This document shows, piece after piece, positions 10,043 through 61,734 of a stretch of DNA of 64,000 nucleotides. This DNA comes from Limnephilus marmoratus (Eukaryota > Arthropoda > Insecta > Trichoptera > Limnephilidae). The notes beneath the pieces are model-generated. The model searched no databases and was not told the origin of the DNA. It saw only the letters and a list, made by a program, of their open reading frames with translations. Numbering within the stretch: the stretch's first letter is position 1; each line of letters starts with the position of its first letter. Location: positions 4,898,001-4,962,000 of the forward strand of contig OU862913.1 in assembly GCA_917880885.1 (NCBI GenBank), given 5' to 3'. The position numbers and the translations under genes were made by a program.

Positions 10043-10487
10043 TGTAGCAATCAGACGTGCTACGCAAACGCGTAAAGAAAAACACTGGAATTAACTGTTG
10101 ATCGTTTAAGAATTAATAATTCAAATAATACACTGAGCGTGATCGTTGTAAATAACGGTACAAGTTGTTTGGCTTGCTATTCTATCGACTGACTGGGTCA
10201 AACCATTACTCCGGCTTTTATAATGCCGCGGCGGAGGAAACGGTTTAACAATTCGGCTGATAATATCGAGAGAATACGATACGTTTCTCGATGGTTCTGA
10301 CGCCTAATGAACAGGGAATGTTAATGCTCCGGTTCTTTCCATAAAGTGCGACGAGATCCCAGATATCTCAGCGCCGGTAGGTAGGTATTATTCGTGTACC
10401 GTTCCGATTGTACCACGCGGCGACGTCGCCGTGCTGCACAGGTATATACCTTAAGTAGGTACGTACCTGGGTGTTGGCTTCACCACA
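10043..10487 (-). repeat. 3' LTR of the CsRn1-like element
   Basis: Begins TGTAGCAATCAGACG and ends CTTCACCACA on the + strand. Matches 14446-14896 except for scattered substitutions and a missing 6-bp TAATAA-type block near 10110. Confidence 0.9.
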
Positions 10488-45095: not shown

Positions 45096-46560
45096 GATTA
45101 ATAGGTATTTAAAAAGAAAAATTGTTACATAAATGAAATAAAAAAGTTGCTTTGTTTAAAATCACGATATTAATTTAGTTTATTACGACCGACCGGTTTC
45201 GATTTACACAAGCATCGACAATGAGAACATTCCAAAAGTTTTATACGTTTTTCTGACTGATTTTCTAGTTTTTGTTTTAATTTCCTAATTTTCCCTGAAG
45301 AATTTTTTTTCCGGGATCATAAATTTTCGAACATAAAAAAATTCCAAAAGTTCACAAAACAAAAGCAAAAAGACAGATGTTTTAAAAAACTTTTTCCTGG
45401 CTCAATCAATTTTTTTTTCCGTTTTATCATTTTTCCAGAATTTTTTGTTCAGAAAAATAAAAATTACCCAAAATGGAAAATTTCCAAACTTCACATAATA
45501 AAGAAAAAATTCTCTAAGAATTTTCGGTTTTTCCCAGAAGAAATTAATTCCTAATAAAATTATATTATTAAGTTTCCAATCTTCAAAATACAAAATCAAT
45601 AAGGGAAGTGTCGTACCATCAAAACGTTTTCCAAAGACAAATATTGAAAAAAACAAAATCTTTCGAAACAGTTACGACGCGACGTTTATGTCCAACAAAG
45701 TACTGCGAAATATATATGGAAAAATAATAAATAAAAAAAACTTCGAATAAACGAATTTTCATAACACTTTAAAATATTTAACCCTTCGCTCCCCGACGAG
45801 ACAAACTTTTACTCGTCTATAAAACTCCATATTATATCTTCTATGTCTAAAACATTTTTTACGTATTATTCCTGTCAGTTTATTATTGGATACTATTTCA
45901 TAGGTCGGAAATTTTTTGAGGCTTAGTTACGAAAACGGAAATCAGGAGAAATTGCTTTACGTTGAGTGGTCACGTGGTGAATCGAGTTATTTTTCATTGA
46001 ACGAGGAATTTTTTTTTTTCATATTGTAAACCAATAATTTCATTATCTATCAACATTGTTAACTTTAAAAGTACTAGACATAGACATTCGCCAACTGTCA
46101 TTAAAATAGCTCTCATTCATATACGAAAAAATAGTCTGATAAATTCCACACAATTTATACGCGTCACTAAAATAAAAACCACCTTTTCACAGAGACAATA
46201 CTCATACTTCGCACCTAAAATGTTTAACGCACTAAATAAAGACATCGAAAGATTTAGTACAATTACTCACTTTGCATTCGGTGTCCAAAATTGAATATCC
46301 GAAAAGGGGCGAAATGTCTTTAAAGAATCTTCAAAAACGTGTACATAACATTTTAATAGCTGAAATATTTAGCTTTAGTATTTCAATGGAATTTTAGGGC
46401 TCGTGCAACCTTGTATTTTATATAGGACGCTTGAAGGTTACATTATATAAACATCAGATTGTTGGAAATTTTCCGATACAAATAAGATGAGGAAAATGTA
46501 ATATAATATTGACGTCAGAACGGTCGACGGTCAAAAGGACGCCAATTAATATATGCACAT
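45096..46560. other. AT-rich intron sequence
   Basis: No gene recognised. A GACCGACCGGTTTCGATTTAC block near 45187 looks like repeat debris. Small open frames are Phe/Lys-rich and without motifs. Confidence 0.3.
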
Positions 46561-46900
46561 AATTTATTAACAAGCGTGTTTACTTCGCACAACGGACTGC
46601 ATAATGCGCTACAATGTCATATAAACAAACAGCGTAGTCATTATCCTACAAGCACTATCCTACAAATTACTCAACAATCAACTCACACTAACATCACGCC
46701 ACTTTACAATCAAGACATCCACACTCACAATACTCGAAATAGCAATAAAATCCGCATACCTCAAACACACACTACAAAATATGGGATAAAATCTCTGAAC
46801 CATGTTGTCTATACACTATATAATTCGCTACCAAATATGTATAAGGGAGTCCAACAAAATAAAAAAAATTCAGAGTAATGCTTTAAAAGAATATTTTTTG
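46560..46900 (+). pseudogene. LINE C-terminal fragment
   Basis: Encodes DIHTHNTRNSNKIRIPQTHT and YGIKSLNHVVYTLYNSLP, a pattern (HNTRN...LP...YG..S......YN.LP) common at the C-terminus of Jockey/CR1-type LINE proteins. Confidence 0.7.
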
Positions 46901-47394
46901 AGTATGTTTAAGAGGGTATTATTACCAGAGAAAACCAGAAATATGTCATTTATAAATCAGGTTTAGACGCATTGACTCTTTTCCACATAAAATTATAATT
47001 TCTTTCTTTCGATTTTAGCATTCGCATGTTTTAAATTTTGAGAAAAAATGTTTATTTTTAGTATAATAAGGTTTATACATTAGGTCGTTGGCAGATTTAT
47101 TAAAATTTGTGTTATACCATACCCATTTCAAATCATATAATCATGCAGTAAAATAAATCAATACATTATCTGGGTATCACACGTTTTAGAATTTTAATTT
47201 TAGTTTAAATAAAATCATAAAAAAATATATACGTACATGTGTGTCTTGAAGAAAATTGGTCCGTTTGTGTATTTATTTGTGCAAACTAATATATTTCAGA
47301 TTTTTTTAACAATCTTATTTAACTTAGACATTATTGAAAAATGATAAATACTCATAATCAAAAAATAATTACAAAAAGTACATTATTTTAATAG
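46901..47394. other. Unassigned AT-rich sequence
   Basis: No gene or repeat recognised. Confidence 0.3.
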
Positions 47395-47615
47395 TTTTAT
47401 CATCAGGTCTTTCAGCATTTTTGGAGGTAGGTATAAATTAAAGCAAATTTGGAATGAAATAAAATCGATATTGAGTTATAATTTTAAAAAGCTGGTACGG
47501 AGAATAATTAATCTTTCTCATTGTAACCGCCCTGCATGATCGTAAGAACAACTTTCGACGAAATGTGGATTTTCGGCCGCTGGCTGGTTAAACGCTCTTT
47601 TAAGGATACTTTGTA
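47395..47615 (+). repeat. Unknown interspersed repeat, copy 2
   Basis: Same orientation as 43040-43300 and alignable by eye over about 200 bp. Confidence 0.6.
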
Positions 47616-48284
47616 ATTTTCTTGTCATGTTCAATTGTCGTGTTTCTTTTCTCTTCTTTTCTTTTCCATTTAGTTGTAATCATCCATATCTGTATAACCT
47701 TGTTCCTTTTTTCTTTAATTTTTTTCTATGGTTGTTTCTTTTACTCAACCTGTCTTTTATTTTTTCGTCTATATTGTATGTGAAACTTATATTTTTAATA
47801 TCTAAATTCATATGTAAAATTTTAACTATTTCCTCCCACCCATGATTTGTTTTTCCTCCTGTTCTAAAATGAGTTCTTTAACTCATCGGGATTGCTCTAG
47901 CAAGAAATAAAAACAAAAAAAAAAATATAAAAATAATTATCCATTTTATTTATGTGAATACGACGGTCCCAATAATTGCACTGAACAGAGAGTGAGACTA
48001 TGAGGTCCCAAAGCGAGGAATATTGTAAGGCTGGGAAGAGATCAATATGGGGAAGAGGAGGATTGGGAGGTAGGTACCTGGCCATTCTAATCTGGCTAAA
48101 CGCAACCGAAGCTAGTTCAAGCAAAGTTTCGATTCTGAAAGATAGTCTTTCACTGGGGCGATACTGAAAGTATCCACCACTGACTCTGGAGCAGGCCGCA
48201 AATACAGGCGCTGAACACAACGTCCGGAAACTCGTTAAACAATCTGAAAAGGTGAGAATCGGAATCACATCTTTGTTTTTTACT
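47616..48284. other. Unassigned sequence
   Basis: Holds an A-rich run at about 47905-47940 and a minus-strand open frame (48337-47897, 146 codons) with no motif I recognise; the frame overlaps the repeat to its right and is probably not a gene. Confidence 0.3.
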
Positions 48285-48840
48285 TTGGCTCCACACAGGA
48301 GGCTCTGAGGAAAATAATTACCCTCGTGGCCTTGCATCTTGGGGATGCTGTGCGAAGGGTATTTTGAGGAAAAGAATGAGATGAAGTTCTGGAGGGGGAA
48401 AAGGTTGAGCGGTGGGTAGGAATCTGGGGGTCAGTCAGGTCAGTGTATCCAGGTGTGACGGGCGTATGAATCCATTCCGCTCACTGCGGCGCAAGGCGAT
48501 ATTTCGAGATAGTCCTACTGGAGAGGTCAAAATGTCTCCCTCAATCAGTCTCTCCCGATCCGGTCTGCCACGCAGTTGGTGGGCAGATTCATCCACCCCC
48601 AAGACAAGGTCAAACCTCACCCCGTGAACCCGAGCACTCCTGCTAAGCCACCAAACATAGCAAACCACTGGGGGTGAACTATGGCAGAGGTGTCGGTTAT
48701 ACAATAAACGATTCTCGGCGCGGCGGTACCCAGATTCTGAATTCTCTCCCGCAATACCACGCGATTTCAAAAAGGTGTGGAATGCAAGCCTTATGGCCGT
48801 TATACACGACATCTTTTTGAGCCCGATTCCAATTAGATAC
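48285..48840 (-). mobile_element. CR1-type 3' tail fragment
   Basis: Minus-strand relative of 3600-4310 and 26805-27255: the tail CCTCAGAGCCTCCTGTGTGG sits at the left, with the GGATTCATACG and TCGGGAGAGACTGATTGAGG blocks inside. Confidence 0.6.
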
Positions 48841-48963
48841 AAAAGTAAAGATTTTTCACTCTACGCGATAGCTATTTTCATCTCTATTTTCATATCTACG
48901 ATTTCAATTTTCATCACTGCAAACAACACATGAACCATGCTATTTGCTGTGATGCATATTTGC

Positions 48964-49264
48964 AGTGAGCTAGAGTGCTGTGTGGCATGGACACCAGGGG
49001 CGGTCCGTGACTATTCAGTGAGCTAGAGTGCTGTGTGGCATGGACACCAGGGGCGGTCCGTGACTATTCAGTGAGCTAGAGTGCTGTGTGGCATGGACAC
49101 CAGGGGCGGTCCGTGACTATTCAGTGAGCTAGAGTGCTGTGTGGCATGGACACCAGGGGCGGTCCGTGACTATTCAGTGAGCTAGAGTGCTGTGTGGCAT
49201 GGACAACAGGGGCGGTCCGTGACTGTTCAGTGAGCTAGAGTGCTGTGTGGCATGGACAACAGGT
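48964..49264. repeat. 53-bp tandem satellite, about 5.7 copies
   Basis: Unit starts AGTGAGCTAGAGTGCTGTGT and ends CGGTCCGTGACTATTC; starts at 48964, 49017, 49070, 49123, 49176 and 49229, exactly 53 bp apart. The first four units are almost identical; the last two carry ACAACAGG for ACACCAGG. Not a CRISPR array because there are no unique spacers. Confidence 0.95.
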
Positions 49265-49818
49265 CACTGAAGTCAGAGACCGCCACTATTGGACAAGGAC
49301 ACATGTCATTGAAACAGCCGAATATTCGCTAAATAAAACAACAATCCGGTTTGTTCACAAGGGCCATTAAACAGCAGCCGAGAATTCAAATTGCGTCGAA
49401 CGATGCGATTATAGTTAAACAGAAACTAAATGAACCCTCAAACGTCCATAGTCAGTAATAGAACTAATTACGCAGTAATATAATTTTATTACACAAACTG
49501 TTTTTATTATCTTCGGAATTGAATTCAAATGACTTCCAAGTATGAATTTAAGGATTGACTACAAATGCGTAGGTGTTTAAAAATACCTACAAGGTGTCCG
49601 GTAACTCATATTACATACATAATATTTCAGAATCAACAAAATTCTTAGACAGGTATTATCTGATGCTAATTAGTAAAGCGGTAACCAATTTATGAGTCAT
49701 ATAAATATAAATAGTATATATCTAAAATATATAGTTTATATTTTTACCCCCGGTTGGGATTTTACACATTTAATTTTTTAAAGACAAAAAACACCTAAAT
49801 GTAAATTTTTATTTGTAA
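49265..49818. other. Unassigned AT-rich sequence
   Basis: No gene or repeat recognised. Confidence 0.3.
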
Positions 49819-50577
49819 CTAGCTGGTCCCGGCATGCGTTGCTATGCCATTTAATAAAGAAATTGTTTCTCCCTGAGTGTCCTTTTCCATGAGATATATT
49901 CCTATTCCCCTTCCGCCTCCCCTTCTTCTCCTGCGTCCTCTTTCCCTCTCGCGTTCCCACTCCGTCACCTCCACCTTCCCTCTCCCCTCTCCCCACTCCA
50001 CCCCCCTCCCTTCCCCTGTCCCGAACCCCCCTCCCCCTCCCCCCTCACACGTCCCTTTCCCCTCCAACTTCCCTGCCTTCCCTCTTCCCTTTCCCGTTCC
50101 CCCGACCCGCCAACCCTCCTCCCGCGTTCCATATATTCAATCCCATTACATTCAGTTTTCAAACAGTCCGCGTGCCAACTTTTACAATTTTTATTCAAAT
50201 TTCCATTATTCATGTATATTAAATTTGGTACCTAACATAGGTATCTATTTAAAATATCTAAAATTCTCGATTCGATTCAAACTATTAGGGGGTACCTAAT
50301 TTAAATATATTTATTAACTTAAAGATTTTCAAAAATAGAATCCTGATTGAACAATCATTGTTTTGCAAAATGTTATCCTCAAACACGCGAACTGTCAAAA
50401 GTGCGATGTTGTCTGAAATTATCCAATTTTCTGCGCAATTTTCTTAATTTCTCTCTCCGTAAGAACCATCCTCGTACTTCAAGGAATATTCTAAAAAAAA
50501 TTTTTGCGAAATCGGTTCGGCTGATCTCGAGATTTGCGCTTAGCAACACATTTAGCGATTCATTTTTATATATAAGA
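49819..50577 (-). mobile_element. Non-autonomous Helitron with intact ends
   Basis: On the minus strand it starts A|TCTTATATATAAAAATGAAT (50577) and ends GCATGCCGGGACCAG CTAG|T (49819-49822). The cargo is C-rich on + (about 49905-50125). Same family as 35608-36362. Confidence 0.85.
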
Positions 50578-50889
50578 TTAAAAATATTTTACAGTTCACG
50601 GAAAACATAAAGATACGGATATTTATTTAATAAACGAAATTTATTCCATGTTATATCGTAGAAGTAGTTCAAGTGCTTTATAACATATTTGACACTAAAT
50701 AAGATAACAAATAAATTAACAGAATAACAAACACAATATTGATGCAAAAAAACAAATAATTGATCAATTAATTGTAAACACCTATAACTAAATATTTCAA
50801 CACATAGGTAAAACACGCAAAGTTGATTGCTTCTAGGTTAAACACACAAAATATTATATCAAACATTAGACAATGGCGTACATAATAAT

Positions 50890-51960
50890 ATTACCCAAAT
50901 AATTGAAATTTCACACATCATCCTCGTCACTGACCGCATCACTATCCTCAAAATCAATTACTTATAAAATAATCTGGGTAATTGTCACATATGCCTTCTT
51001 TGATGAAATCCTCATTTTGGAGTCGTTCTCCACGAATTACACAATTTTTTCAACCCTCAAGAAGCACCATATCTATAGCAGCATGCACAAGGCTTTCGAC
51101 ATCCGAGATTTTGAAAGAATTGTTATTTTTTGCAATTTCTCATTTGACATGAGCCAACACTAACTCTATAGGATTATACTGAGTACTGACCATCTACTGA
51201 CAGTAGTATGGGGGCGGGGGTAGACGCAATGGTAGACGTACAACAAACTTCATCACCACATTGTTGAGCCAGGTTATCGATTTCATATATTTTTTCACCT
51301 AACTTAAATTTCTTTACTAAATTCAATAAATGAGTGTTAAAACTGATATTCTTCCTTTTGGGCCCACTCCACATTTTCGCGTTTTTGGATGCGGTAGTTG
51401 GTGCTGTATATAATTGTATGTTGCGTTATCCATTACAATTACAGAGGGTTCTTCGAGGAATGTCACAAACTGATTTTCAAACCAATTTTTGAAGACTTTG
51501 AAATTTTTCTCAAAAAGTCTATACGAGCTGTAGCAATGAAAAATATTCCCACTAAATACTTTCTTCCGTCTTTGCGTATTTTGATTTGGAAACCAATATC
51601 GTGCAGAATACATCGCAATGACTCATGAGATCCAGAAAAAATATTTTATCCACCAGAACCTTGTTAAGATTTGCAAGAGTGGGATATTGGCCATTGTCAT
51701 AAAAATCCATCACAGTACGACGCAAAACTTCCTTTTCAAAATCATCCAATCGCTTCACCGTTTTAGGTGTTTTGCAGTTTTTACGAGGCTGGTGGAACAT
51801 TTTTACTTCTTCTGCATACGGAAAATGAGAAGTTTCCGCCGACACTCTTCGAATGTTCGACAGGTTGAGGCCGCAAGCCTCTACTGCCAATAAATGTACT
51901 TGCTTGAAGTTCAATGTTTTGATGTATTCTGGGTTGTCAGGGAGTTTTTGGAAAAATTTG
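50890..51960 (-). pseudogene. Tc1/IS630-type transposase, decayed
   Basis: Minus-strand pieces 51914-51552, 51613-51323 and 51374-51174. A DDFEKEVLRRTVMDFYDNGQYPT-type block is followed by a region reading HDIGFQIKIRKDGRKYL. The catalytic block VIVMDNATYNYIQH and a later NPIELVLAHVKCEIAKNN stretch (near 51130-51180) match the DDE_3 type. Frames shift at least twice and no TIRs were found. Confidence 0.7.
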
Positions 51961-52404
51961 ATATGACATTATCGTTTTTTCACCTGCCTGCAATTCGTAT
52001 CGATGATTTACTACTATTATCTACTAAAAGCACTGATTTTAGATCACACAATATGTAATTACAATCACACCGATTAAATAAACGGAGTCAAATTGACATT
52101 AATAATGTAGAATATCGAAAATAAAGTATTTGACTGGTTTTTGATCTTATGAAGTCAATACACTACTTATAACTAAATGTAGAATCATTAAGTGTTTGCT
52201 TTTATAGCAACAAGATATAAATAACAATGGAATTTCCACAGGATTTAGTCGCCTAATTCACGGGAAAAACCGCCATTGAAATTTAAAAATTTTGTTTCGC
52301 AGCGTATAATTATTAAGTATCGTCTGAAATATTGTTTTTAGAATCCAGTTTAATTATTTCCGAAAATCGGAGTTTTCGAGGGTCGAATAAATAATAAGAA
52401 ATGA
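51961..52404. other. Unassigned AT-rich sequence
   Basis: No gene or repeat recognised. Confidence 0.3.
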
Positions 52405-54165
52405 AAAATAATATTTATTTATTTACTTAAACGCCCATAGGGCTTTTAACATAGAATGCAGTACAATTTTTTTTATTACAGTGGAAAGATTATAAGTAAC
52501 ATAACATATGTTAAAAACAAACTAGGTATAGATTATATAAAATATAAGCGTTAACAAAATACAGGTAAAAAATAGGAGTATGATATAGACGCCGTGCAGA
52601 CGAACACTATATACCTAACATTAATTATTGTCATTGAGGTATGATATTATAGCCTTCTTATAACTATATTCGGTGCAGTTGAACACATCTACTACTTCTG
52701 AGAAAGCATTTCCAATTGCATGCAATCTAGGTATAAGCGAGTATCTAAATGACTCAGTCCTGATATTTTTGTTGCAATTAAAAAGAATTTTGGATCGAGT
52801 AGTTCTAGTAGGTATGTGGAAGGTAATAAGGTTTAATAAATCAGGACTGTCTATAATACCATTAACAATTTTAAAAATAAAAGTCAAGTCGGAAATAAGT
52901 CTTCTATCTGAAAGTTTGAGTAAGTTTAATTCTTTCATCAAGTGGTTGTAATTTATTGATTCTATTGGTAGACCAAGTTTATAGTTAATGAATCTTAAGA
53001 ATTTATGCTGAATTTTTTCTATGGAATCGGAGTGGATTTTGAAGTGAGGGGACCAAATAGAAGAATTATATTCGAATTGACTTCGAACTAGAGAGGAATA
53101 TAGGATTTTTAATGTTGAAATATTTTTAAAATCTCTGCCATTTCGAAGAATGAAACCTAGCATTTTTAATCATTTATTGGTTACTGTAGTTATATGTGGA
53201 AGAAAGTTAAATTTGGAATCGAAAATAATGCCAAGATGATTAATCTCACTGACAGAGGTGAGGGAAACATTATTAATTTTATATTGATAGTTAATGGGTT
53301 GATTTGTTCTGAAAAACCTAATTATCTGGCATTTACTTATATTCAGATAAAGTTTATTAGTTTTACACCAGTCTTGTAGTTTATTTAAATTTGATTGAAT
53401 GTGAATACAGTCATTTATTGTTTTTATCAGTTTAAATAGTTTTAAGTCATCGGCGAAAAACAACACTTCAACATTATTATCAAAAACAGTGATGATATCA
53501 TTTATAAAAAGTAGGAACAGTATTGGGCCTAAATGTGACCCTTGAGGTACACCGCTAGTAGCCATGAATTTGTGTGATAGGTAAGAGTTATTTTTTACTT
53601 GGAGAATTCTATTAGTTAAGTAACTCTTGATCCATTCCAATAGTTTACCCTCTATTCCCATTTTACTAAGTTTGTTGAGAAGAATTTCATGGTTAACTTT
53701 GTCAAACGCTTTGACAAAGTCTGTATATATTGAATCTACTTGGGTTTTATTTTCAAGTGAGCATGCAATAAACTGTTCGTACAAGGAAAGATTTGTTAGG
53801 GTGGATCTGCCCGGCATAAAGCCATGTTGGTTAGGTACAATGATGTTATTAATATGTATGGAGATTCTGTCAAGGATAAGTTCTTCAAACAGTTTGGGGA
53901 TAGTTGAGAGCATACAAATGGGTCGGTAATTAGTGACATCATGAATATCACCCTTTTTAAATACGGGTGTGAGATAACAGTTTTTCCATAAATCGGGGAA
54001 ACAGCCAGAATTAAGTGATTGGTTAAATATTTGACATAGTTATATTAATAATATAATGGTGGAGGGTCTTTCGAGTTTGGGTTTTTCGGAATTTTTACTG
54101 TACGTTCGAAATTTTGAGAGTGCACTTGGTATCTGTTCGACTATAGAACTTGCGATAGTATCCTT
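52405..54165 (-). pseudogene. LINE reverse transcriptase, 5'-truncated, lightly damaged
   Basis: Frames 53913-53170 and 53163-52621, with weaker coding to about 54165 (FKKGDIHDVTNYRPICMLST). RT motifs: QHGFMPGRSTLTNLSLYEQF, DFVKAFDKVNHEILL, SGVPQGSHLGPILFLLFIND, VLFFADDLKLF. The C-terminus has SQFEYNSSIWSPHFK. The 3' UTR at left has ACGCCCATAGGGCTTTTAAC and a (TTTA)n end. Same family, opposite strand, as 62351-63850. Confidence 0.88.
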
Positions 54166-54255
54166 GCTATAACTCAATATCGATTTTATTTCATTCAAAA
54201 TTTGCTTTGATAAATACCTTCATTCAAAAATGCTTAAACTCGTGATAATGAAACT
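54165..54255 (-). repeat. Unknown interspersed repeat, copy 3 (inverted)
   Basis: Reads CTATAACTCAATATCGATTT on +; the inverse matches the beginning of 43040-43300. Confidence 0.5.
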
Positions 54256-54815
54256 ATTAACCTGTTGTTTGCCAGGGTAGGCCAGCAAAAAGCACCACCA
54301 ATTAGCGTTCGCAAAAAGCGGCATCCATGAAACCCAATGACATTTCGTGTCCAGCGATTCTTGACACTGTCCTTCACAAATTTTGTACATAGAAGGGTCA
54401 AAATCGTAGATGAAGGAATTTTTCCCGCGCATGCGCAAGAACTGCGCACATTCCCGCGCTCCGGTAAATTATTAATATAAATTATTTGGAGTGACCAGGC
54501 GCATTGCGGTTTTCTCTATGGTAAAGGGCGATAATAGAGCAAGCGATTCTGACCGTGTTCTTCATACACTTTCTTTATACATAAGGGTCAAAATCGCGTG
54601 TAAAATCTCAAACACACCGGTGCACGAATGGCAAACTACGGGTTAAATTTTTCTACTTTTTAAAATTATTTTTTGATCTAAAGTATAATTTTTCAATAAC
54701 GCCTAAGCAAAATAATCAATAAATTTTATAAAAGAAAGTCCCAAAAAAACGTGCGGAACGCAAAAACTCAGAAACGAGTCCCTCTACGATCAAGGGAGTT
54801 AAATGATGTGGTAGA
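54256..54815. other. Unassigned sequence
   Basis: No gene recognised; short open frames without motifs. Confidence 0.3.
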
Positions 54816-54939
54816 TCTCTATCCCCACCAGGGAATAAGGGTACCCCTTTTTACCTAAAAAGCGTACTTTTGAAGATATAAGGGCTGAAAGTTCTAAGAA
54901 GACTTTAAAAATTTACGGAAACTACTAGAAAATTCGATA

Positions 54940-55585
54940 AAACTCTGGAAAGTTCTGGAAGGAGTGGAGGACTATGTCAGCGAGTCTAGAAGGTTCTGGA
55001 AGGAATGGCGGAATAGGTCTAAAAGGTTCCGGAAAGTTCTAGAAGATTCGATAAAGCTGTTGAATATACTGGAAGGAATGGCGGATTATATAGGTGAGTC
55101 TAGAAGGTTCCGGAAAGTTCTATAAGGTTCGATAAAGGTGTAGAAAGTTCTGGAAGGAGTGGCGGAGTATGTCGGTGAGTTAAGAAGGTTCAGGAAAGTT
55201 TCATAAGGTTTGATAAAGTTATAAAAAGTTCTGGAAGGAGTGGCGGAATATATCGGTGGGTCCAGAAGGTTCCGAAAATTTCTATAACGTTCGACAAAGT
55301 TGTAGAAAGTTCTGGAAGGAGCGGCAGAGAACGTCGATGAGTCTAGAAGGTTCCAAAAGTTCCATAAGGTTCGATAAAGCTGTAGTTCTAGAAGGTTTGA
55401 TAAAGCTGTACAAAATTCTGGAAGGAGTGATGGAGTGTGTCGGTGAGTCTAGAAAGTTCTAGATAGTTCTGGAAGGTTCCCTTATGCTTTAGGATGTTAT
55501 GGAAAGAGAAAGTTCTAGAAGCTTTCAGAAATGAGTGGCGGAGTGTCGGTGAGTCTTGACGGTTCTGGAAAGTTCTAGAAGTTTG
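54940..55585. repeat. Diverged ~85-110-bp tandem repeat of GAA/TTC units
   Basis: Repeated phrase GAGTCTAGAAGGTTC ... GGAAAGTTCTAGAAGATTCG ... TCTGGAAGGAGTGGCGGA in about six diverged copies. The 5-bp alternation of GAA and TTC matches the heat shock element consensus; strict runs include 54948-54960, 54989-55001, 55027-55049 (five units), 55103-55120 and 55143-55155. Confidence 0.8.
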
Positions 55586-55683
55586 GATAATCTTAATCTA
55601 TCCCCCATCCATGAAGAAAGTTCCCATTTTTACCTGAAGGGCGTGCTTTTAAAGATATAAGGGCTGGAAGTTTTGCCCCCTTG

Positions 55684-56045
55684 AAATTTCTAGAACAGCT
55701 CAAAACATTCCAGAGTATTCTTGAGCATTCCACCACATTCCAGAAAATGCCGGAACATTCTGGAATATTGTGGAATGTTCGGGAACAGGATGGAACGTTT
55801 AGGAACATACCGGAACATCCCGGATCATTGTGGAACATTGCAGAACACTCCTGAATGTTGTGGAATGATGTGGAACATTATTCTGGTATATAAGGCAAGA
55901 TCTGTCGTGGATTCGAACCTCAATTCAATCTCACATCAATTCCCTGAGCGAAGCCGGACACCCCAGTCAGATATTTGAGAGCATTCCACAACGTTCCAGA
56001 ACATCCCGGAACGTTTTGGAAAATCGTGGAATGTTCGGGACTCAC
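55684..56045. repeat. GGAACATTC-type repeat, also heat-shock-element-like
   Basis: Runs such as GGAACATTCTGGAATATT and GGAATGTTCGGGAAC keep the 5-bp GAA/TTC alternation. Part of the second Helitron copy. Confidence 0.7.
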
Positions 56046-56214
56046 GAATGTATCCTGAGCGAAGCCGGGTAACCCAGCTAGTATATATATATATAGTATA
56101 TGTGTGTGTGTATGTACTAGATATATTAGCTATTTGATAAAAAAGTGATTATTCAGTTTTGTGGCCTCACATCCAAATTTAAGTTTTGAATGAAATAATT
56201 AGCACCGCCAGTAA

Positions 56215-56290
56215 TAATAATTATACTTGGATGATTTATATAGCGCCGTTTTTGTGAAAAATCACCTCAAGGGCGCTGTACAAACTTATA
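56215..56290 (-). mobile_element. RTE 3' tail fragment
   Basis: GGATGATTTATATAGCGCCG...TCACCTCAAGGGCGCT is the inverse of the tail at 19310-19375. Confidence 0.7.
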
Positions 56291-56329
56291 CAATTCTAAA
56301 ATCTAAGCTTACTTGCGCATATTGTGTAG

Positions 56330-56805
56330 CCATTTTGCTGATACCCGTCATTTTGACTGATACCTGACATTTGTCTGATTCCCGTCATTTTGACTAATAC
56401 CGGTGATTTTGACTGATTACCCGCCATTTCGGCTGATTCCCGTCAATTTGATTAATACCGGTCATTTTGACTGATTACCCGCCATTTTTGCTGATTCCCG
56501 TCAATTGTAATTGTTACTGTTTCCCATCATTTTGACTGATATTCGCCATTCCGACTAATACCCGTCATTTTTACTGGTTCTCGTCATTTTGACTGATACA
56601 TTTAATTTTTACAGATTTCCGGCATTTTACTGATATCCGTCATTTTGACTGATTCCCATCATTTGACTGTTACCCGTCATTTGACTGATACCCGTCATTT
56701 TGACTGATTCTCGTCATTTTACTGATACCCGTCATTTTGACTGATTCCCGTAATTTGACTGATACCCGTCATTTTGGCCGATACTTATCATTTTAAGTGA
56801 AACAT
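56330..56805. repeat. 18-20-bp minisatellite
   Basis: About 25 diverged copies of CGTCATTTTGACTGATACC / TTCC variants. It ends about 120 bp before the first clip-domain exon of gene 2. Confidence 0.9.
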
Positions 56806-56923
56806 TAATAATTAATTTAAAATCAGCAGAATTTATTTAAACAACAGATTTACTTTATTTTTCGCCCACATTGTTGATCGATTTCTGGTCACGTAATTAC
56901 GTTTCTGTTGTGTTATGTTACAG

Positions 56924-57027
56924 GTGATGCATGCACCATAAAGACCACAGGGCAGAGGGGCAGGTGCCAGCACATAAGCCGGTGTGCAGTAGTTCTTGCT
57001 GAGGCCTTTGAGGGAATACCTCCTCAG
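56924..57027 (+). CDS. Gene 2 exon 2: first half of clip domain 1
   Basis: A 104-nt exon, phase 1 in and phase 0 out, between the acceptor GTTATGTTACAG and the donor GTGAAG. It encodes GDACTIKTTGQRGRCQHISR, then CAVVLAEAFEGIPPQ: clip cysteines 1-3 with spacing C-x10-C-x5-C. The exon at 60889 supplies cysteines 4-6. Clip domains regulate activation and interactions of haemolymph proteases; the PPQ.C.F pattern recalls group C (snake-like) clip domains. Same length and cysteine spacing as the exon at 61042. Confidence 0.8.
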
Positions 57028-57079
57028 GTGAAGTCGCAACTCACTTACATCAGCCAGTAACCAGTAGCCAGTAGTCATA

Positions 57080-57250
57080 TTGCCTGCTTTTATACATCCA
57101 GAATACCTGGAAAAAAGCCTCGACTCTGTGTGGAAACGAGCGGTCCGTTTGATAGATTCTCCTATCTCAGGGTTTCCCAACCAGTGGTCCGCAAGAGGCT
57201 AGAAGCTGGTCCGCGATGGTCCGCCGCGCCGGTCAATAAGCGAGCAAGCG
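57080..57250. pseudogene. CR1-like LINE scrap and a hAT-like end
   Basis: 57095-57165 (TCCAGAATACCTGGAAAAAA, CGAGCGGTCCGTTTGATAGA) matches the CR1-like LINE. At 57166 it is cut by CAGGGTTTCCCAACCAGTGG, a sequence like hAT ends; the other end was not found. Confidence 0.5.
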
Positions 57251-57339
57251 CGCGGGCGGTCCCTGGTCGAGAAGTCTGAATAAAATAATATTCCATGTAT
57301 CATTATTGTACCTTGTGTTCAGTGGCCATTAGGCCATCC

Positions 57340-57575
57340 CATACTACCCCGTTCTACCCCCTCCGTTGTGGTAAATATTCTACTAGAACCCGTCTCACCT
57401 ATCCCATTCCGCCCCCTCCGTTTTGGTAAGTATTCTGTTAGAACCCGTCCCACCCTATCCCATTCCACCCCCTCCGTTTTGGTAAGTATTCTGTTAGAAC
57501 CCGTCCCACCCTATCCCATTCCACCCCCTCCGTTTTGGTAAGTATTCTGTTAAAACCCGTCCCACCCTATCCTAT
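57340..57575. repeat. 56-bp minisatellite, about four copies
   Basis: Unit CCGTTTTGGTAAGTATTCTG ... CCCATTCCACCCCCT; starts at 57363, 57418, 57474 and 57530. It lies in intron 2 of gene 2. Confidence 0.9.
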
Positions 57576-57604
57576 ACAGTTGACATTTGCCACACGAGAA
57601 CGGA

Positions 57605-58310
57605 TCATTTTATTTATTTTATTTTATTTATTATAGATAGATACGAAAGAAAGTACGAATTACATAGAAGGAAGCTTTGCCTGTCCAACTAGGAAAGTTT
57701 CCCGTTCCAGAACAGACAAATTGACAGGTTTATGTAGTTCAGATTATTCATTACATAATTACAAAGCCAAAAAAATAGGAAAAATAACCTGGTAGCATAT
57801 ATTATATTATATTCGGATTTACCGAAGTTGGAGGAATTACAATAAGATTTACAACATAAAGAGATGAAGTTTTGTGTTAGGTTATGTGTTTAGAAGTGTG
57901 AACTTATAATACATGGTACCTACACTTATAAGAGAATCAACATTAAAATTTACAATAGTAGATATATAATTTATGAATGTAATAATATAAATGTTTTTTT
58001 AATTATTTATGCGCTGTTACTACAACGAGTAATAAACTATGTGCAAACATGATTATTTACACTGATTTGAAACATGTTTTCGGTACATATTAAATTATAC
58101 GACAATACGAATATACACTGCGCTCATGTCATGAACTACTCCTTCTAAAATATGAGAACAATAATTATAGATATATTATGTAGAAATATGAATGTGAATA
58201 GAAACTATGAATATAAATAAATAGTAAGTGCTACTTTGGTATCAGTGTAGTGAAGTTGGTACATTACTTCGTACGTCATACAAGTTGTGTTATGTATTGT
58301 TTATTTATTA
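57605..58310 (-). mobile_element. LINE 3' tail fragment
   Basis: Starts with a TTTA run and GCCTGTCCAACTAGGAAAGT, the block shared with 5575 and 26070. The remainder is AT-rich without coding sequence. Confidence 0.55.
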
Positions 58311-60256
58311 CTAGCTGACCCGGCGAACTTCGTCCCGCCTCAGAATCAATAACTGTTGTGTTAACTTATTAGCGGAATTAATTTAATTTTTTAAAATTAA
58401 AATGAATTAAGAAATGTAATTCACGTGGCAGCAAGGCATTTGCTTTATTAAAGCGAATGGAAATGATTCACGTGGAATTATTGTACTACTTTTTGTTAAA
58501 CTATTTACTGGAGGGGTTGCACTTGGGTCGATTCCCTTCATTGAAGCACCTCGTGATATTAAGACATTTTTCGTTTTGTCACTACTCATTACCGATAATC
58601 AGCAATTGCTTGGAGAAATCTTCGACAGATGGATTGGGTTGTTTAGCAATGCAACTCGCATATGTATCGTCAGTTGAAGTTTCTTCACAGAGTCGATGAT
58701 TTGAGGAAATTTATTTCATCGGCAGCGGTCGATCTTGGAATGACTGGTAGTGTTTGGTGGAAATCGCCAGAAAGTAGAATCATTGCACCTCCAAAACATT
58801 TTAAGTCATTACGCAGATCTTTCATAGTTCGATTGAGTGCTTCCAATGCGCTTTTGTGCGTCATTATGCATTCATACCAGATGATGATTTTACTTGCTAC
58901 CAAAACTTTGGCCATTGTTGAGTGTTTCGTAATGTTTCATATTCGTATTTCGGTCGTTTGAAGGTTTAACAGCAATTTCAATGCTGAATGAGCTGTTCGA
59001 TATCCTTCTAGCAACGTGGCCGCTATTCCTGAAGAAGCGAGTGCTACAGCAATTTCGGTTCTCGCACGAACGGTGACCAAAATCAATGACATGAGGAATG
59101 TCTTTCCAGTTCCTCCGGGCGCACCGAGAAAAAATAAGCCACCATTTCCATCATAAATTGCCTGATTAACATATCGTGCATTTCGAACTGATTGGTTCAA
59201 TGCATCTTGATTATATTCACGCTCAAGTTCCAATTCTTGATTGAAAGCATCGTTCATTCCATGATCTGGCGTTGGTATTCAAAACTTGACTAAGAAACTG
59301 CCGCACATGAGGTAACACATGTCTTCGATCAAAAACAAAGTCTGGTTATGTATATCCTCATTTACCTCGAGATCAGGATTCCCTGAAATGAAACGAATTC
59401 GATATAAAATATCATCCTTGTCATCTTTGTACTTGTTCCATAATTCACGTAGATTCGATGGGAAACATGTCGAAATAATGATAGCAAATAATGATATCAA
59501 ATAATGTGCGTATCAGACTTGGAGATGCAGAAACAATGCTTCAGTGATTGTCATGTCCCAATGAATATCTTTTTCAAGCAAATTGACCTGCTGACATGCA
59601 ACACGAAATGTTGGGCACACAACACCATTGACTTGTGATTTAAACAATGTCGGCCCACGAACATTCAACAGCAACAACCCAAAGTAGAAGCATTCGTCAC
59701 TTTTTAGATGAACTGTGTAGTTTGAACGCCAAAAACTGCCATATCGCTGAATTTTGTGACAAATTTGCAGATGTATTTGATTGACTTAATCGAATTGCAA
59801 TACTCCACGTTACAATGCGCCTTGAATGTTTTGGTGGCTGTTTTCCTGGAGTTGTGCAGACATACGTTCACAATTTGTCTCATTTTCGACTGTTGACATT
59901 TAGTGTGTAAGAAAGAGAGGCAGCATTATGTATTTAAGAACAAAAGCAAAACAGTCAGCACACTGACATTTGACGTTTTTGAATTTTTGGAATTCATTCA
60001 ATACTCAATATTATACCTACCTACCACAATATTCCTGCAGCTCTTTCAAAATGTGTAAATTCGTTCCATACTAAATGTATGAGGAAAGGAATTTTCTTCA
60101 TAACTTTCGTTTTCGTGAATTTTTGCGATGTTTTAATAGTTATTATGTTATCCGGGGCGGAGACAAATCCAACAAATCAAAGATCATCAAAATCGGTCCA
60201 GCCGTTCTCGAGTTATAAATAGTGTAACTAACCCGACTTTGTTTTATATATTAAGA
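58311..60256 (-). mobile_element. Helitron with helicase remnants, intact ends
   Basis: On the minus strand it starts A|TCTTAATATATAAAACAAAG (60256) and ends GTTCGCCGGGTCAG CTAG|T (58311-58314). 1,946 bp; derived from an autonomous element by internal loss, since only the helicase part of RepHel is recognisable. Confidence 0.85.
58407..59890 (-). pseudogene. Helitron RepHel, PIF1-like helicase part
   Basis: Minus-strand pieces: around 59700-59540 (CPTFRVACQQVNLLEKDIHW, a Helitron-type linker), 59500-59279 (FPSNLRELWNKYKDD), 59257-58937 with the Walker A FLGAPGGTGKTFL and ASSGIAATLL, and 58915-58685 with LLSGDFHQTLPVIPR. A last piece, 58589-58407, is of the helicase C-terminal type. Stops separate the pieces, and the Rep (HUH) domain is missing, so the copy cannot move by itself. 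Confidence 0.85.
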
Positions 60257-60279
60257 TAAATCATCACCGCTATAAGGTA

Positions 60280-60585
60280 CCAAGATCCACACAGCGAATC
60301 TTAATGTTAGTTAATGTTAGCGACGTGCGTGTGTGGCGCCTTATAGTAGTGATGTACTCGGAAATTGAACACGAACTTGTTTTTGAGTTCAACATGCTCG
60401 GCTGCGGATCGATTTGCCGACCTCTGTGTTTCATCCCTCCTACATTATGGGTCTCTTCAAGATCCAGGTTCACTTCTTCATTTCCAGAAAATGCCCTTCA
60501 CACAGCATCCCCAAATATGACATAGGCTCTGGGGGAAATTATTTTCCTCAGACCTCCTTTGTGGAATTAATGTAAAAATCTCAAA
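60280..60585 (+). pseudogene. CR1-like LINE 3' end
   Basis: Reads (in shifted frames) SVFHPSYIMGLFKIQVH and ends with GGGGGAAATTATTTTCCTCA and TTAATGTAAAAA, the shared tail of this LINE family. It abuts the Helitron. Confidence 0.7.
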
Positions 60586-60888
60586 ATACATTTTTTTTTT
60601 AAATTATGATTCCCATAAATCACAAACTTATAAACAATTAATACATATAAGAAAATACTTATAATATTTATAAAAATGTAAGAATTAATTAATTAATGAA
60701 TAGAAGGTAGGTGCGCTGCGCAGAACAGCGGTGAAGATCGCGTCAATGAGGAGAGACTCTTTCAAGAATCAATAGGATTTTCCCCGGATATATGAGAGCT
60801 CCCTAATCTGTTTATATTCCTTTTCGTATTATTTAAAATTGTATATTTAGTTAATACCAAAATGATCATTTATATGAATTGTTTTCAG
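60586..60888. other. Intron 2 end of gene 2
   Basis: AT-rich; supplies the acceptor TGAATTGTTTTCAG. Nothing else recognised. Confidence 0.4.
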
Positions 60889-60949
60889 GTATGCACTTTT
60901 GAGGGCACCGTGGCGATTGTCTGCTGTCCGCTTATCAAGATAGCTGAAG
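60889..60949 (+). CDS. Gene 2 exon 3: second half of clip domain 1
   Basis: A 61-nt exon, phase 0 in, phase 1 out. It encodes VCTFEGTVAIVCCPLIKIAE and closes the clip domain with cysteines 4-6 (C-x9-CC). The donor used here is GTACAG (60950). A stronger GTAAGT lies at 60978, but splicing from it into the next exon would create a stop at once, so 60949 is preferred. Confidence 0.78.
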
Positions 60950-61041
60950 GTACAGTACTCGATATAATTAGGCGATGGTAAGTTTGATAGGCTCCCCCAT
61001 GTGACCGTGACCGTGAGCCTGATGTGTCTGTGTGCTTGTAG

Positions 61042-61145
61042 GTGACAGCTGCATCATGGAGGGATCACACAATTCTGGGGCGTGCACGCGACTTGCAGAC
61101 TGCCGGGTTGCAATCCTTGCTGCCAATAAGGGCATCGTACCACAG
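61042..61145 (+). CDS. Gene 2 exon 4: first half of clip domain 2
   Basis: A 104-nt exon after the acceptor GTGTGCTTGTAG, ending at the donor GTAAAC. It encodes GDSCIMEGSHNSGACTRLAD, then CRVAILAANKGIVPQ. Same length, same phases and same C-x10-C-x5-C spacing as exon 2, so it is a duplicated clip-domain half; its partner with cysteines 4-6 must lie beyond 61146, and I did not find it before 64000. Intron 3 is only 92 bp. Double clip domains are known in some lepidopteran prophenoloxidase-activating proteases, but the subgroup cannot be named from this part. Confidence 0.8.
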
Positions 61146-61382: not shown

Positions 61383-61734
61383 TTAATATTTGACAAGTTT
61401 AAGTATTTCCCCAATAAAATGAAGACATAATTTGTCTCGACGCCACCTAGCGAGGGAGTTAACACTTACAATGTTTCTCTCGCAAAAATAAAGTTGGTTG
61501 TTTTCAGGTGGAAAAAAAATATAATAAGCAGTAATTGTTGAATGAAACACTAGCATATATTGAATCATTTGGCGGGTATGAGATAAGCCGCCATAGCTCA
61601 GTGGTCAAGAGCAATCGACCGGCAATCGAGAGGACACGGGTTCAAGTCCCGTTGGCGTCATGTATCTTTTCTCGGAAGAATTTTCAATGTGGATGAGTGT
61701 TTCAGGCTGATAATTATTGCTTATAATAATTGTT
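61164..61734. mobile_element. Inserted element with palindrome and tRNA-like core
   Basis: Bracketed by a 12-bp direct repeat AACAGAATTACT (61152-61163 and 61735-61746), as expected for a target duplication. The left part is a perfect inverted repeat (arms 61163-61255 and 61290-61382). The middle part shows CTCGACGCCACCTAGCGAGG; the right part repeats the palindrome's spacer (61521-61557) and, at the end, a piece of its arm (61708-61734). It starts 18 nt after the exon 4 donor. Class unknown. Confidence 0.65.
61587..61660 (+). tRNA. tRNA-like cloverleaf (74 nt), possibly SINE head or relic
   Basis: Acceptor GCCGCCA / TGGCGTC (6 of 7 pairs), D arm GCTC...GAGC, anticodon stem TCGA/TCGA with 7-nt loop CCGGCAA, 5-nt variable region, T arm ACGGG-TTCAAGT-CCCGT. 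A box TAGCTCAGTGG and B box GGTTCAAGTCC are good. The anticodon would be GGC, but position 33 is C where U is near-universal, so function is doubtful. Confidence 0.5.

Follow-up and report, generated by a model that had tools for sequence, protein, structure and literature searches.

A DNA window of 64,000 nucleotides, the whole stretch analyzed here, holds a Helitron-type element (54816-56081) with a heat-shock-element (HSE) pattern that is real, strong and, within the window, specific to this element. The element may be a non-autonomous Helitron in which an HSF-driven promoter survived the loss of the transposase gene, a reading to which we give an even chance. It is favored by an HSE density above that of shuffled sequences, by the core common to the two arrays of the element, by a bias in the spacers of the sites, by the spacing of a TATA box and a start-like motif and by a precedent in Caenorhabditis. 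Against it stand the lack of core conservation, the column composition of the second array (array B), the degenerate TTC halves close to the TATA box, the lack of a transposase remnant and the finding of a single copy.

The ends of the element are of Helitron type, as the first-pass annotation had reported. The A at 54815 is followed by TCTCTATCCCC on the left side and CAGCTAG, whose last letter is at 56081, is followed by T on the right side. The 5' TC and 3' CTRR termini of canonical Helitrons are thus both present. Canonical Helitrons insert between A and T; the left flank of the element ends with A and its right flank begins with T. No target-site duplication or terminal inverted repeats were detected by eye in the ends and flanks. 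The canonical Helitron features are the termini, a palindrome or hairpin of 16-20 nt close to the 3' end and, in autonomous members, RepHel (feature list in PMC6544945). The GGGTAACCC stem near the 3' end is weak (-2.8 kcal/mol) and no better than in shuffles (z -0.35), the corresponding z values being +0.51 at the inner degenerate 3' end and -0.89 at the end of the neighboring Helitron. Pfam searches of the six frames of 46001-61000 (E up to 0.01) revealed no transposase domain in the element, the matches in this region being only to the reverse transcriptase of a LINE and to PIF1 of the neighboring Helitron. Because RepHel was not found there, the element is non-autonomous at best; such an element is still compatible with Helitron membership, and the Helitron identity is well supported by the ends.

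The element is a composite, because a second 5' terminal region and a second, degenerate 3' end lie inside it (Table 1). Its parts are a 5' end with array A, a 5' end with array B and the degenerate 3' end, and the intact 3' end preceded by a partial copy of array B. The two 5' regions have 85% identity over the 53 nt of repeat D9 and share 59 of 83 aligned positions over a longer stretch. The degenerate and intact 3' ends are alike at 28 of 40 positions (compared over 55931-55970).

Table 1. Coordinates, in the window, of the Helitron-type element, its parts and neighboring features.
Feature	Position	Strand	Characteristics
Helitron-type element, composite inside	54816-56081	+	TC start after A, CTAG end before T; 1,266 bp
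First 5' terminal region (TCTCTATCCCC...ATATAAGGGCTGAAAGTT)	54816-54893	+	terminal motif and repeat D9
Array A, HSE-type GAA/TTC units	54898-55590	+	contains tandem 81-bp repeat 55017-55385 (4.6 copies, 82% matches)
Second 5' terminal region	55597-55680	+	resembles first 5' terminal region
Array B, 19 units in 10-bp register	55703-55892	+	consensus GAACATTCYG; last unit overlaps TATA box
Candidate core promoter: TATATAAGG, then CAATTCAAT at 55921	55887-55929	+	TATA/start spacing
Degenerate internal 3' end (CCTGAGCGAAGCCGGACACCCCAGTCAG)	55943-55970	+	repeat D12
Partial array B copy, 6 units in 10-bp register	55979-56038	+	repeat D1, 84% over 69 nt
Intact 3' end CCTGAGCGAAGCCGGGTAACCCAGCTAG, weak GGGTAACCC stem, then T	56054-56081	+	terminal motif
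Second Helitron	58311-60256	-	A, then TCTTAATATATAAAAC...GCCGGGTCAGCTAG, then T; decayed fragment of a PIF1-type helicase at about 58.7-59.2 kb
Exon-like pieces with CLIP-like cysteine patterns	about 56924-57027, 60889-60949, 61042-61145	+	agreeing splice phases; downstream of the element

The alternating GAA and TTC units 5 bp apart that had been claimed for the element are present, including the run of five units at 55027-55049. Perfect runs of at least three HSE units number 14 in the window, 13 of them within the element and one outside it; after dinucleotide shuffling (1000 rounds) the element holds 0.034 such runs on average and 1 at most. When HSEs are counted as overlapping 13-mers, 17 of the 18 found in the window belong to the element (13.4 per kb versus 0.02 per kb elsewhere) and all 17 perfect 13-mers fit one 1-kb interval from 54941. 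Sites with at least 8 of the 9 letters are found 67 times in the element and 36 times outside (111 versus 331 for at least 7 of the 9), and those with at least 8 span 565 of the 1266 element bases versus 0.7% of the rest of the window. The three array spans total 943 of these 1266 bases. Distances between units peak at 10 bp for GAA-GAA and at 5, 15, 25 and 35 bp for GAA/TTC. A loose score (three consecutive units, each with 4 of 6 letters) yields equal numbers of chains, 11 within the element and 11 in the remaining 62.7 kb, with up to nine units per chain in the element and never over three outside. The hallmark of functional HSEs, at least three alternating GAA/TTC units at 5-bp spacing, is found in the element as a sequence pattern. 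Helitrons of the window do not all share this pattern, since the neighboring one (1,946 bp) has 0 perfect sites and 2 near-perfect ones.

A dense HSE pattern may also be the by-product of a palindromic repeat that was expanded in the Helitron by slippage or rolling-circle copying, its HSF function never having been selected. Note that GAAnnTTCnn is a 10-bp self-complementary pattern. We hold such an origin to be a substantial possibility, though somewhat short of even. The comparison between the two arrays speaks against it, because arrays of unlike period have the core in common more than the spacers. The array A unit has 81 bp, about 60 bp of which are in the 10-bp HSE register, while array B, in 10-bp register, has a consensus unlike that of array A. 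When units of the two arrays were compared in 20 phases, leaving out the nineteenth array B unit that overlaps the TATA box, the best values were those of the HSE phase and of its reverse-complement equivalent (0.49, 0.50), the next one being 0.34. In the HSE phase the core columns have a mean identity of 0.67 and the spacers of 0.29, which ranks 2 of 210 column splits, with units placed in register on GAA, a choice that favors the core.

The spacers of the sites bear on the same question. HSF prefers pyrimidine-purine spacers in TTC-nn-GAA (TTCTAGAA). They account for 18 of 20 such spacers in the element, compared to 8 of 28 in the rest of the window (Fisher 2.7e-5, calculated on repeated units that are not independent). 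Self-complementary spacers (TA or CG) are also frequent in TTC-nn-GAA, at 7 of 20, in line with a palindromic by-product, whereas only 1 of 22 GAA-nn-TTC spacers is self-complementary, which argues against it.

The first-pass annotation had proposed that the HSE density be weighed against shuffled controls of the same repeat units. The 81-bp array stands out in such a control. When four of its 4.6 copies (55017-55340) were submitted to identical column permutations over 5000 rounds, none (0/5000) reached the 8 perfect or the 21 near-perfect sites observed. Column permutations of array B (19 units) reach its 2 perfect sites in 26 of 5000 rounds and its 15 near-perfect sites in 4 of 5000. Shuffles within its columns give a mean of 3.14 perfect sites, which is more than the 2 observed, and of 12.41 near-perfect sites, with 851 of 5000 rounds reaching the observed 15. 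Array B thus has no clear HSE excess beyond its column composition, a result that is in favor of the by-product origin. The variation among the 81-bp copies is in its favor as well. In the four copies, 13 of the 144 core cells depart from the consensus, as do 8 of the 96 spacer cells in register (Fisher p = 1.0) and 13 of the 84 cells in the 21 bp outside the register (p = 0.19 versus core). The HSE cores are no better conserved than the spacers and, since both vary equally often, nothing suggests that the sites were recently under selection. The by-product origin has in addition known counterparts in Helitron-type elements with internal tandem repeats such as the oyster Cg_HINE (PMC7492417). 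A TATA box and an hsp70-like start directly after array B weigh against it.

This TATA/start arrangement is an addition to the observations of the first-pass annotation. Array B runs straight into TATATAAGG (55887), which is followed by TCAATTCAAT (55920), and the candidate promoter points out of the 3' end of the element. The distance of CAATTCAAT (55921) is 32 nt from TATAAG and 34 nt from TATATA. The sequence therefore has the hsp70-type arrangement of HSEs, TATA box and start at about 31-34 nt, with the HSEs closest to the TATA box degenerate: the perfect HSE trimers are found more than 100 bp upstream of it and the nearer units have degenerate TTC halves. A post hoc search for TATA and a start-like hexamer at promoter spacing, with a pattern (TCA[AGT]T[TC]) wide enough to admit the 55921 site, gives 4 pairs on both strands of the window, compared to a mean of 1.29 in 100 shuffled windows, 7 of which hold 4 or more. 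A pair on the + strand occurs in 9 of 2000 element shuffles. The 150 bp before the pair of the element hold 13 near-consensus HSEs, those before the other three pairs 1 each. CAATTCAAT itself occurs twice in the window over both strands, 55921 included, and its rate times seven spacings is about 1e-4, a comparison equally made post hoc. Two of the other three pairs, near-identical TATA-start sequences at 10222 and 14631 (minus strand), flank a retroelement frame (about 10.5-14.5 kb) and are probably its LTR promoters.

The RepHel of Helitrons is read from the TC end towards the CTRR end, and the helicase fragment and ends of the neighboring Helitron agree with this direction. Because of it, the order of 5' end, HSEs, TATA box, start and 3' end is the one expected of a Helitron transposase promoter. 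The 3' module of the element, which has these parts in this order, appears to be the remnant of an HSF-driven promoter that probably belonged to the transposase gene of the parent element and was left when the coding part went. Heat-activated HSF trimers would bind the arrays and bring polymerase to the start near 55921, the transcript leaving through the 3' end. The arrays may alternatively serve as an enhancer on the flanking DNA. In the parent element the promoter would have tied transposition to stress, and copies like 54816-56081 would lend heat-responsiveness to nearby genes, so that the present element might make DNA in its vicinity heat-responsive.

The HSEs, TATA box and start may instead have been captured together from a host hsp promoter and amplified later, the sites being then cargo and not a transposase promoter. 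Capture of gene fragments by Helitrons is known (PMC6544945) and the TATA-to-CAATTCAAT spacing is close to that of Drosophila Hsp70. The likeness to Hsp70 is nevertheless confined to the TATA box and the 9-mer, the sequences beyond being unlike by eye, and module 1 also has HSE-type units directly after its own 5' end. We regard the capture of a host promoter as unlikely.

No second copy of the element is present elsewhere in the 64-kb window. Its 3'-end patterns have 0 matches in the viral_contigs and genome_contigs collections, and pieces of the 81-bp unit have 0 matches in viral_contigs. Two single 20-mer matches of the 81-bp unit in bacterial MAG contigs of genome_contigs were taken as chance, and a self-complementary six-unit HSE pattern found in 6 viral contigs, at one site each, was taken as background. 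The element and the neighboring Helitron are alike at 16 of 40 positions of the 3' end, mainly in the last seven letters, and at 25 of 55 positions of the 5' end. An open frame of 120 codons runs antisense through array A (55086-55448, minus strand). No credible relative of its product was found, the search yielding one protein with an E of 1.5 among 14 candidates, and the frame was taken as a by-product of the 81-bp (27-codon) repeat.

The element had also been placed inside an intron of a protease gene. Exon-like pieces with repeated CLIP-like patterns do lie downstream on the + strand, while the CLIP assignment is below cut-off and neither an upstream exon nor a convincing catalytic motif or domain was found in the window; the placement in a protease intron is plausible. 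The Pfam CLIP match has an E of 0.011 and 16.4 bits, under the cut-off of 20, and a PDB sequence search gave nothing relevant. The GDSGG and TAAHC protease motifs are absent from the window, which has only short, chance-like matches (SAHC, DSGG, HExxH). An upstream exon is expected, because the first piece (56924-57027) starts in mid-codon, and none was found by motif scans or by Pfam on 46001-61000. A minisatellite (56331-56784) with about 24 copies of the 19-bp unit CATTTTGACTGATACCCGT lies close beside the Helitron 54816-56081, a tandem repeat of a 56-bp unit (4.2 copies, 91% matches) spans 57337-57572, and a tRNA-Ala (GGC) gene-like sequence (61587-61660, + strand, Rfam 60.7 bits) is found beside short repeated stretches.

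The relatives of the retroelements in the window make an arthropod genome likely and an insect plausible. The closest relatives of the LTR element are at 90% and 76%. Lepidoptera, at no more than about 50%, predominate among the named relatives in the best 120 of its 1663 matches, alongside some beetle, pseudoscorpion, flatworm, fish and bacterial-MAG labels. For the LINE, the best 120 of 1425 matches include named relatives with up to 55% over the greater part of the query (58% over a portion of it); these are mostly insects, with one isopod and one record labeled Streptococcus.

Helitron-borne HSE clusters are already known in Caenorhabditis, the new part being an arthropod-like case with an hsp70-like core promoter. 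Dense HSEs together with such a promoter would suggest that one class of transposons recruited HSF repeatedly and independently. They would open to testing whether Helitrons in general rely on stress-coupled promoters and whether they rewire heat-response networks outside worms. A broader proposal would be that an arthropod Helitron lineage, independently of Caenorhabditis, built its mobility on an hsp70-type heat-inducible promoter and spread heat-shock promoters and enhancers across the genome, such rewiring of the heat shock response being recurrent and not a peculiarity of worms. We advance it tentatively and consider it rather improbable as it stands.

The parallel with Caenorhabditis drawn in the first-pass annotation is borne out by the literature. 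In C. elegans, HSF-1 binds HSE-rich Helitrons, and these are enriched in the vicinity of genes induced by heat (Garrigues et al. 2019, PMC6927752). The HSE-bearing families are Helitron1_CE, HelitronY1_CE and HelitronY4_CE, and among the UCSC metazoan genomes with annotated Helitrons the enrichment was reported only in Caenorhabditis, to which the authors consider that the association may be restricted (PMC6927752). Helitron1_CE RNA rises upon heat shock and is sensitive to the HSF-1 level (Schreiner et al. 2019, PMC6765114), and both studies provide the precedent for HSF-1 binding at Helitron1_CE (PMC6765114, PMC6927752). The present element resembles these Helitrons in its dense HSE cluster, its 17 sites in 1 kb exceeding the 10 per 1 kb above which PMC6927752 counts a cluster, under the motif NGAANNTTCNNGAAN of its Methods. 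The motif in the Results text of that paper, NGAANNTCCNNGGAN, has 0 matches in the element; that such sites had escaped the published comparison across species was considered and then dropped, since the Methods give NGAANNTTCNNGAAN and not NGAANNTCCNNGGAN. The two systems differ in lineage, arthropod-like here, and in that HSF-1 binding and heat induction were shown in the worm while the case made here is one of sequence. No arthropod HSE Helitron was found by title or start of abstract among the papers listed in the literature searched, subscription papers and Repbase being outside this search.

The Drosophila Hsp70 promoter has HSEs upstream. In its core promoter CAATTCAAT lies 31 nt after the TATA start (PMC5972414), compared to 32 or 34 nt in the element. 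The match is limited to the TATA box and the 9-mer, and the HSEs of the element differ in being long degenerate arrays in a transposon. The oyster Cg_HINE, of Helentron type, is likewise a rolling-circle element that is non-autonomous and has tandem repeats in its center, flanked by conserved ends (PMC7492417); its repeats are satellite-like, whereas the element described here has canonical TC and CTAG ends, between A and T, and repeats of HSF sites. HSF1 and satellite RNAs are connected without any Helitron in PMC9032817. The ISY Helitron of Drosophila miranda, which spreads MSL sites (reviewed in PMC7168160), is an insect Helitron that disperses a protein-binding site, but for the dosage-compensation complex and not for HSF. 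The Xuan-Feng Helitrons of wheat carry a heat-responsive promoter, Feng8, assayed with a reporter (PMC13286980). The element shares with them a Helitron promoter tied to heat, predicted here from sequence; Xuan-Feng differs in being a plant system, and the term HSF occurs 0 times in the main text of its description (PMC13286980).
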